A stretch of DNA of 64,000 nt. Source: Bacteroidota bacterium (lineage in GTDB: Bacteria > Bacteroidota > Bacteroidia > Chitinophagales > Chitinophagaceae). Location of the stretch: NCBI GenBank assembly GCA_018267875.1, contig JAFDXP010000023.1:1-64000 (forward strand). Direction: 5' to 3'. Positions 13,783 through 16,855 of the stretch are shown here, one piece after another. The notes beneath the pieces were generated by a model. The model was not told the DNA's origin. It made no database searches and saw only the letters and a list, made by a program, of their open reading frames with translations. Made by a program: the position numbers and the translations under genes. Each line of letters starts with the position of its first letter. Positions within the stretch are counted from its first letter, which is position 1.

Positions 13783-13942
13783 GGCAATCTATATTGGACA
13801 AAACATAAATGACGCTTAACACAAATATTATACCAGATAGGTGTTGCAATTCTGTTTTAAGTATCTCGTGTTAGGCTTTGATTTATCTATTCTTGGTCAT
13901 CTTTTTTTGAGATTCCGGCTGTAACATTGCGGCTCGAAAAAA

Positions 13943-14347
13943 ATGCTCGCTCAAAACAATTGGAAAAACGCTCTAAGGTTCAGAAGATGGAGTCGTAAGT
14001 CTTACGCTTCCTTTCTGACTATTGGCAAGCACATAACCATTGGTAGGCTAAAAAGCATCGTTGCTGACACCCTATTATCTAAAAATAATAAGCCTGAAAA
14101 CCCATCCAACCTAAACCCATTTACCGGTATCTTTTCTGAAAAAGAAATAGACGATCCGCCCATACTTACTTCGGCTTGGCTACTCGCTCCCTTTGCGCTT
14201 ATAGAATCCTCAAAACAAGAGGAAAGAAACATTTTTTTAAACACAACCAATCCGTTTGTTTATCTGGCTGAAAGTTGCTGCACAAGCACCTTTCAGCCAT
14301 TCTTATTTTTATTAACCATCAAAAAGATTTTGAAATACAAACAACAA
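13943..14347 (+). CDS. In-frame leader ORF before the TonB receptor
   Basis: From an ATG at 13943 the frame stays open without a stop into the TonB receptor, adding 135 residues ahead of that protein's signal peptide. The first 45 residues are strongly basic and aromatic (RFRRWSRKSYASF, then IGKHITIGRL) and look like real protein. I recall similar WSRKxYAxF...TIG peptides encoded near cobalamin receptor genes in Bacteroidota, but could not check. The later part reads like non-coding sequence and contains a 13-pair hairpin. It may be a separate leader peptide, part of an attenuator, or an N-terminal extension. A -7-like TAACATTG lies at 13922. Confidence 0.4.
14266..14310 (+). terminator. Attenuator-like hairpin before the TonB receptor
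   Basis: GGCTGAAAG (14266-14274) pairs with CTTTCAGCC (14290-14298), extended inside by TGCT/AGCA after one mismatch, loop GCACA. ATTCTTATTTTT follows. It lies about 50 bases before the receptor ATG and inside the open leader frame, so it would act as a conditional terminator rather than a gene end. Confidence 0.6.
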
Positions 14348-16273
14348 ATGAATTGCAAAACACTTCTGAAAATATCCATGCTGATATTGGGGTACACAAA
14401 CCAAACTTATGCACAAATACAAACGCTGGATCCCATAACTGTAACTGCCTCATTAAGCGAAGCTCGAAGTTCAGAAACCGGGCGAAATATCGTTATTATA
14501 TCCGGTGCTGAAATTTCAAAATTACCAGTACATTCTTTAGATGAATTACTAAAATATGTTCCTGGTGTAGAAGTGCAATTGCGCGGCCCGCAAGGTTCTC
14601 AAAGCGACATTAGTATTCGGGGAGGCACATATCAACAAGTGTTAGTCATTTTAGACGGATTGCGTTTAAACGATCCTAATACCGGACATTTTTCAGCGTA
14701 CATACCCATCACACCGGCACAAATTGACCGTATAGAAGTGCTAAAAGGTGCGTCAGCAGCTATTTATGGCGCAGATGCGGTAGGCGGAGTAATCAATATC
14801 ATTACTAAAACTTTCAACAATGCACAACAACCCAATAAACAAGTTGCTATTGCTCAAGTAGGCATAGGCGATTTCAACTTAACTAACATGAATGTTGGCG
14901 GCTATTTTCAAGGGCAACAGTTCAGCCTGGACGGTGGTTATATGTCCAATCAATCAATAGGCAGTCAGCAACGTGGAGAAAATGGATATTTCTATAACAC
15001 TACCGGCTCAATTGGTCTTCATTATCACATCTCAAAACACTGGAATCTCTCAGCACGCAGCACTTATGACAACAGAAATTTTGCAGCTCAGAATTACTAT
15101 ACCACTTTTGTTTCAGATACAGCAACCGAAAAAGTAAGTAGTTGGTGGTATCAAGCAAAACTAAATTATGAGAATAAAAACTCTCATTTTAGCATCCATG
15201 CAGGATATAAAAGTTTAAATGATCAGTACACCTACAATGCCTTTTCAACTGCCAATAAAAATCAATCATCCTATTTCCAAACCTTAGTCCTTTTTCAACA
15301 AAAAATCAATCAACAACTATATTTCACAGCAGGCTATAATTTTCAAAACAAAGGAATTGTATCTAACGACAGAGGGAATCATCAAATTCAACAACATGCA
15401 CTCTTAGCAAGCGCACAATACAAAATTTTTAATTATTTAAACCTAATGCCTTCTACACGAATTGAATTTATAGGCAACAATAATGTAGAAATATTACCTC
15501 AAATTAATGTATCATGGCATTTGCATCCGTTTCAAATACGCGCCAGTGGCGGAAGAAGCATTCGTGATGCAGACTTTACTGAAAGGTATAACAACTACAA
15601 CAAACCTTTAGTTACTGGAGGAAGCATCGGTGATCCCTATTTAGTTCCCGAAGTAGCGTGGAGCTATGAAGCAGGTGCGGATTGGTTTTATGGAACTCAA
15701 TTAAAGTTATCAGCTACCTTTTTTCAACGATTTCAAAGTAAGCTCATAGATTGGGTTTCCACTCCCTACATTGATATGCCTCGAAAAGATAACCTTACTT
15801 CAACAGGTAGTTACGCATTAGCCACCAACATAGCAGAAGTAAACACTACCGGTACTGAAATGGATATGCAATACACTAAAGCCATTTCATCCAAACAAAA
15901 ATTTAAACTCAATGCAGGCTTGTTGTGGCTACATAGCACCAGTAGTGAAAATAATCCTTCCTTCTACATTTCTTCACATGCCAACTTCTTAGCCAACTTC
16001 AATCTTCAATACCAAATAGGCAAAGTATCAGTCAGCTTCACGGGTATCTATAAAAATCGTAAGCCTCAACAAGCTACTGCCATAGATGCAACAGTAAGTG
16101 AAACCTATTTTGTGTTAAACGGAAGAACCACTTATTCTATTTGGAGAAATTATTTTAATGCCTTTGTACAGGTGGACAATTTGTTCAATCAATCATACAG
16201 TGATCTATTAGGTGCAAAAATGCCGAGACGATGGTTGCAAGGCGGAATTAGTATAAATTGGGCCAAAAAATGA
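14348..16273 (+). CDS. btuB: TonB-dependent receptor, cobalamin/BtuB-like
   Basis: A 641-residue outer-membrane active transporter. The ATG at 14348 is chosen because it begins a signal peptide (MNCKTLLKISMLILGYTNQT ending YAQ). A plug domain follows with ITVTASLSEARSSETGRN, LDELLKYVPGVEVQLRGPQG, DISIRGGTYQQVLVILDGLR and IEVLKGASAAIYGADAVGGV, then a 22-strand-type barrel ending in GISINWAKK. Plug sequence and small size resemble BtuB-type vitamin B12 receptors. No ABC or other uptake genes are adjacent. An attenuator-like hairpin and a leader ORF precede it, suggesting regulation by premature termination. The substrate remains an inference. Confidence 0.8.
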   Translation: MNCKTLLKISMLILGYTNQTYAQIQTLDPITVTASLSEARSSETGRNIVIISGAEISKLPVHSLDELLKYVPGVEVQLRGPQGSQSDISIRGGTYQQVLVILDGLRLNDPNTGHFSAYIPITPAQIDRIEVLKGASAAIYGADAVGGVINIITKTFNNAQQPNKQVAIAQVGIGDFNLTNMNVGGYFQGQQFSLDGGYMSNQSIGSQQRGENGYFYNTTGSIGLHYHISKHWNLSARSTYDNRNFAAQNYYTTFVSDTATEKVSSWWYQAKLNYENKNSHFSIHAGYKSLNDQYTYNAFSTANKNQSSYFQTLVLFQQKINQQLYFTAGYNFQNKGIVSNDRGNHQIQQHALLASAQYKIFNYLNLMPSTRIEFIGNNNVEILPQINVSWHLHPFQIRASGGRSIRDADFTERYNNYNKPLVTGGSIGDPYLVPEVAWSYEAGADWFYGTQLKLSATFFQRFQSKLIDWVSTPYIDMPRKDNLTSTGSYALATNIAEVNTTGTEMDMQYTKAISSKQKFKLNAGLLWLHSTSSENNPSFYISSHANFLANFNLQYQIGKVSVSFTGIYKNRKPQQATAIDATVSETYFVLNGRTTYSIWRNYFNAFVQVDNLFNQSYSDLLGAKMPRRWLQGGISINWAKK

Positions 16274-16495: not shown

Positions 16496-16855
16496 TTAAA
16501 GGTTGTTGACTATTTTTTGTTTTCCATCTGTCAAAAGTTTAGAGTTGAAATTAATTAGCAAAGCCATTTTTTGATCTACTAATTTGACATAGGTAAGTTT
16601 TTGTGCAAAATGAACAGGTGCAAGGATTTCTAATGATTTTAGTTCTATAATGAACTTGTTTTCTACGAGTAAATCAATTCGGTATCCAATATCTTGTTTC
16701 ACTTCTTTATACGCCAAAGGCATAACAACTTGTATCATTACCTCCAATTCCATTTCTCTTAAATCATAAGACAGGGCTTTTTCATACGCAGATTCTCACA
16801 GTCACTGCCCATGAGTTTTATGCCAATCCACCTTTCTTCCAACTCATTAATGCCG
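16496..16855 (-). pseudogene. Decayed GxxExxY-family gene
   Basis: The intact 3' part (start codon possible at 16753) encodes GYRIDLLVENKFIIELKSLE and AQKLTYVKLVDQKMALLINF, the PD-(D/E)XK-like core of GxxExxY proteins. The same frame extends upstream as ESAYEKALSYDLRE, the family's defining stretch, but is then blocked by two TGA codons. Further upstream, in another frame, INELEERWIGI matches the family N-terminus, with the GxG segment that should lie between deformed. A frameshift plus a small deletion near 16800-16830 therefore broke the gene. The family's role is unknown. Confidence 0.75.

Follow-up and report, generated by a model that had tools for sequence, protein, structure and literature searches.

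Leader peptides of the TnaC type (tna operon) combine a short upstream frame, conservation at the peptide level and control of termination downstream, and in attenuators of the trpL/hisL type the translation of a leader decides whether an intrinsic terminator forms. The Sec/YidC arrest peptides SecM, MifM and VemP (PMC10987492) are likewise encoded in upstream frames, with conserved residues, a function-matched gene and a patchy distribution. Biotin synthesis is controlled by the repressors BirA, BioR, BioQ and BioL (BioL: PMC12915131), and the Cobalamin riboswitch (RF00174) before BtuB-type receptors exemplifies leader control of a vitamin TonB receptor. The leader frame described here has traits in common with all of these systems but departs from each of them. 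Its peptide differs from TnaC, and its terminator is enclosed by a long leader frame, where TnaC has a short frame followed by a Rho site; the proposed signal is biotin, and the putative arrest would mean OFF instead of ON. Unlike trpL/hisL leaders it contains no run of one regulatory codon and conserves a specific peptide, and the corresponding antiterminator pairing was not found in the window. In contrast to SecM, MifM and VemP, the conserved core is N-terminal, basic/aromatic and linked to a vitamin pathway, and has no RAPP motif. BirA, BioR, BioQ and BioL are DNA-binding proteins, whereas the leader is encoded in cis and the BirA proteins of leader genomes are of ligase size only. Finally, unlike RF00174, the window leader is coding, is without an RNA match and is associated with biotin. 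In our view the leader peptide probably acts in cis and is tied to the supply of biotin in Bacteroidota, as a switch that has so far gone unrecognised, rather than serving vitamin B12 control; its coding status, its architecture and its association with biotin genes are computed. A search of open-licence papers found no earlier description of the leader, and PMC7366714 treats leader-like small frames in the 5′ regions of B. thetaiotaomicron in general terms only.

The window is the whole stretch of DNA that was analysed, 64,000 nt of a Chitinophagaceae contig, and the features of the locus are as follows.

13888..13895, + strand: possible Bacteroidota −7 element TATTCTTG, 48 nt 5′ of the leader ATG
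13943..14347, + strand: leader frame of 135 codons, in frame into the receptor (ORF reading; openness kept in relatives)
13973..14083, + strand: conserved peptide core, residues 11–47, LRFRRWSRKSYASFLTIGKHITIGRLKSIVADTLLSK (codon-position constraint, alignments, codon diversity at invariant residues)
14090..14264, + strand: leader spacer, an open frame without protein-level conservation, core–terminator gap ∼175 nt
14265..14299, + strand: hairpin of terminator/attenuator type within the leader frame, −21.0 kcal/mol, at the same position in loci L045, L099 and L047
14300..14313, + strand: T-rich tract 3′ of the hairpin, TTCTTATTTTTATT
14348..16273, + strand: TonB-dependent receptor of 641 aa, BtuB-like family (Pfam Plug and barrel)

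The sequence-only reading had placed an ATG at 13943 that opens a 135-codon stop-free frame into the receptor, and this frame was confirmed: the ORF at 13943–16273 (776 codons) is free of internal stops, and the receptor ATG and signal peptide lie at 14348. The in-frame entry holds for the window and is not general, as in the near relative L045 (same locus as genome G006) indels give a net frame shift, and the leader stop there forms TAATG with the receptor start. The Bacteroidota −7 consensus is TAnnTTTG, from which TATTCTTG differs by one mismatch; the element is weak in the window itself, and roughly half of the related loci have an exact TAnnTTTG ahead of the core match, mostly at a distance of 36–84 nt. 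A simple consensus scan gave no sigma-70 promoter at the window leader, as expected in Bacteroidota.

To compare constraint along the frame, the window leader was aligned with that of L045, and substitutions were counted per codon position 1/2/3. Codons 1–49 exhibit 0.04/0.08/0.27 and the receptor 0.08/0.04/0.33, whereas codons 50–135 exhibit 0.17/0.26/0.23, which indicates selection on the encoded protein in codons 1–49 but not in the remainder of the leader. The codon-constrained evolution on which the earlier reading had staked its leader peptide is thus present, and only in this first part: residues 1–49 behave as the real peptide that was described for residues 1–45, while the later frame stays open and its sequence drifts. 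In the alignment of relatives the core has the consensus LRFRRWSRKxYAxFxSxxRxVTIGxLxxxVADxxLxK (∼38 residues), and its conserved R, G, V, T and L positions use many synonymous codons. An upstream frame under protein-level selection, as found in leader-peptide transcription attenuators, therefore precedes the receptor, and this selection suggests that the leader is translated.

Constraint at the nucleotide level is also apparent in the core, and RNA may therefore take part. Among the related cores, the codon of Phe6 is TTC in 50/52 as compared with 22/52 for Phe17, a small consensus hairpin is predicted over the RFRRWSRK codons L4–K12 (window 13973–13999; 53 related cores), and among 351 wobble pairs excess pairing is greatest for L4–R11, with codons 4/13 nearly equal to it. 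Such traits are what an RNA sensor, a biotin riboswitch of a new kind that overlaps the coding frame and leaves the peptide irrelevant to regulation, would produce. This explanation is nevertheless quite unlikely, as variability is highest at third codon positions (entropy 1.09, 0.85 and 1.67 at positions 1, 2 and 3) in a protein-like substitution pattern, the frame is open to the gene, the covariation term of the consensus fold of the core is about zero, and no Rfam family matches. At the related loci the only Rfam match is to an unrelated RNA, Acido-Lenti-1 (48 bits; L083:3490-3535, − strand), on a Flavobacteriales contig near a leader–receptor locus.

Downstream of the core, a 13-pair hairpin with a T-rich tract ∼50 bases before the receptor had been proposed, and a hairpin of 14 pairs (10 pairs, one mismatch, 4 pairs) was found whose end lies 48 nt before the receptor ATG; because of the internal mismatch it was missed by a simple consensus scan. 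Relative to the window, the hairpin sequence is partly different in L045 and L099 and wholly different in L047. With terminator-like defined as a hairpin at −9 kcal/mol or better followed by a T tract, such structures occur between core and gene start in 32/42 loci as compared with 19/420 dinucleotide shuffles (4.5%). An intrinsic terminator between leader core and gene, as in leader-peptide transcription attenuators, is thus present in the window and in these 32 loci, and across genera the terminator sequences vary, with the arrangement constant. In contrast, trp-type antiterminator pairing with the 5′ arm of the window terminator was no better than in shuffles. At most loci the leader frame passes through the hairpin, and in L089 and L100 the leader stop falls within its 5′ arm. 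Over 36 loci, 10 stops occur in the leader frame versus 134 and 116 in the other two frames, and 27/36 loci are stop-free in the leader frame versus 1 and 4 in the others. In 12 loci the leader stop and the start of the next gene overlap, and in 10 the two frames are fused. Of the architectural signals, the strongest are a frame that stays open across the terminator and its overlap with the following start, and both agree with a translation-coupled leader without any ligand-dependent arrest. Translation of such a leader would prevent early termination, and regulation would either read the general status of translation or transcription or act on leader initiation. We regard this account as unlikely, since it leaves unexplained why a specific peptide of ∼38 residues is kept across families only before biotin or receptor genes.

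The core is present in 58 Bacteroidota loci besides the window, in line with the similar leaders elsewhere in the phylum to which the sequence-only reading had pointed. Three genomes gave strong matches to the window leader, two from its genus and one from its family. A scan that took a single genome for each species yielded 46 loci, mostly of Bacteroides, Phocaeicola, Parabacteroides and Porphyromonas, and a class-wide search added further loci. The loci are phylogenetically related, and their counts therefore overstate independence; Bacteroides and Parabacteroides dominate, and many loci stem from a single scan that started from the window family. Any hit at E≤0.01 was obtained in 10/396 genomes of the phylum and 7/299 of the order, several of them weak, in searches that were a loose first look in which copies may be missed; most sampled genomes are without a hit, and the distribution is thus patchy. 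Weak hits at E 0.02–1 and at E about 0.001–0.01, mostly short or interrupted by stops, were taken as chance. Within Chitinophagaceae, the leader is absent before 13 receptor orthologues and before all 21 sampled bioB genes.

Of the 58 assignable loci, window included, 46 have the biotin operon downstream and the other 12 a TonB receptor; L087, whose sequence ends too soon, was left out of this count. By alignment, the core is followed by bioB at 44 loci and by a TonB receptor at 7, and further contexts are L098 before bioA, L090 fused to BioB, and L092–L096 fused to receptor signal peptides. Bacteroidales loci have the order bioB-bioA-bioF-bioG-bioC, with bioD where the stretch is long enough. 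BioB, BioA and BioG score above curated cut-offs, BioF has TIGR00858 as its best match (407 bits versus 426), and the two remaining products are those that we take to be BioC and BioD from sequence and gene order. An element before genes of biotin synthesis or transport, as in a biotin regulon, is thereby present, with transport the putative role of the receptors. In Parabacteroides and Porphyromonas (L055:2042-4815 and equivalents), a transporter-like gene of 500–550 aa and a secreted protein of ∼355 aa are conserved directly 5′ of the bio leader. In Niabella ginsengisoli (L046:5614-7324), the leader-led receptor matches in separate pieces, as if frameshifted by sequencing error or decay.

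Fusions of the core to the gene product bear on what the core does. Seven bioB loci have the core fused 31–49 nt before the BioB start, which leaves no space for a terminator, and five receptors have it as the beginning of their signal peptide; transcription attenuation could therefore not be the sole output. In L092–L096, which are some Bacteroidales receptors, the core forms an extended n-region, such that one sequence would be both regulatory and signal peptide. The fusions to BioB in several Bacteroides and to signal peptides in L092–L096 are also what would be seen if the core were a functional small protein, an N-terminal domain or an extended signal peptide and not a regulator. We hold this to be very unlikely, because at most loci the core frame is different from that of the next gene, which it overlaps or abuts, with a terminator between them, and because no model in Pfam or NCBIfam covers the core.

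The window leader had been read as a cobalamin-responsive peptide attenuator before a B12 receptor, in place of a riboswitch. In line with this, the best PDB sequence matches of the receptor are BtuB and its best NCBIfam model is TonB-B12. Against the B12-receptor model TIGR01779, however, it scores 134.8 bits, far below the curated cut-off of 599.7, and falls outside that family. Rfam gave no riboswitch over the window leader region even at permissive settings, and thus no Rfam riboswitch model, RF00174 included, accounts for the hairpin. The single Cobalamin riboswitch of the genome lies on contig C68 before a DUF4465/DUF5074/TonB-receptor operon, and a cobalamin riboswitch at the window leader was ruled out on these two grounds. 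The riboswitch-led operon (L198:2449-7427) encodes a DUF4465 protein, a secreted sorting-domain protein, a DUF5074 protein and its own TonB receptor, and is the better candidate for B12 uptake. In the receptor tree, leader-bearing receptors form two clades apart from riboswitch-led receptors, although branches are long and the deep joins unsure. Most leader homologues, moreover, stand before biotin genes, and on all these grounds cobalamin control of the leader is most improbable. Peptide-mediated attenuation as first proposed thus keeps its selected leader peptide and its positionally kept attenuator-type hairpin, and loses the link to cobalamin. On the opposite strand 3′ of the receptor (16496–16753, −), an 85-aa frame has, by eye only, the look of a short or truncated GxxExxY-type protein.

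The distribution of bioB is consistent with a role of the leader-led receptors in biotin supply. The window genome (G000; 99.2% complete) has no bioB above cut-off, and bioB is absent from 10/10 leader–receptor genomes (G000, G004, G006, G028, G172, G236, G237, G266, G453 and G472), whereas it is present in 6/6 genomes with the leader before bio genes (G132, G205, G321, G345, G412 and G433), a figure that, unlike the 10/10, is partly built in. Two of these, G132 (leader–bio) and G172 (leader–receptor), are species of one genus. Among 46 Chitinophagaceae, bioB occurs in 3/17 genomes with an orthologue of the window receptor versus 18/29 without (Fisher p=0.005, which ignores relatedness); in G032, an L083-type receptor is followed by bioB and bioF in a row. 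On the basis of bioB absence and of a score far below the B12-receptor cut-off, the window receptor is probably an importer of biotin or a vitamer. BioY, as an inner-membrane partner, is absent from G000 and most leader genomes. The BirA open frames of leader genomes are only 253–293 aa (ligase model, 235 positions) and leave no space for a repressor domain; the N-terminal DNA-binding domain that marks BirA-regulated operons was accordingly not found in these genomes. In Elizabethkingia the BirA repressor domain is reported to be likewise lost, with the repressor BioL controlling the biotin genes (PMC12915131). The open-licence literature gave no account of how biotin genes are controlled in those Bacteroidia that have neither a BirA repressor nor the MocR repressor BioL.

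For a cis-acting leader peptide tied to biotin supply, we propose the following mechanism. The core of ∼38 residues sits near the start of a leader frame of 100–170 codons and is kept at the protein level. Past the core the frame remains open across the intrinsic terminator, and it either stops where the downstream gene begins, at its start or within it, or continues into that gene as a fusion. Full translation of the leader would have the effect of disrupting the terminator and handing translation to the downstream gene (ON), whereas arrest of the ribosome by the nascent core, presumably when biotin is plentiful, would let the terminator form and transcription stop (OFF). The arrested ribosome would sit >100 nt short of the hairpin, and since a ribosome at ∼14090 cannot reach a hairpin ∼175 nt further on, arrest would equal termination and passage expression. 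That the frame stays open while its sequence drifts implies that passage of the ribosome through the spacer matters. In direct fusions of the core to BioB or to the signal peptide of a receptor, arrest would prevent synthesis of the gene product itself, with no need for a terminator. Biotin makers would thus place the bio operon under the leader, and genomes without bioB a TonB receptor. Arrest, biotin as its signal, the direction of the response and the receptor substrate are what we infer here, with the genes served pointing to biotin as the cause of arrest. It is possible, if doubtful, that biotin or biotinyl-AMP is sensed by the nascent core itself within the ribosome and that the core then arrests translation; such a peptide would replace BirA repression in Bacteroidia and would have been taken up independently by the bio operon and by two lineages of outer-membrane receptors.

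The leader provides a specific candidate for biotin control in common gut genera. Its context leads one to expect a biotin receptor where a species has no bioB, and speaks for correcting the B12 label that such BtuB-like receptors attract. If the core does sense biotin, it would become the first arrest peptide known to respond to biotin, and a vitamin would join the short list of nascent-chain ligands.
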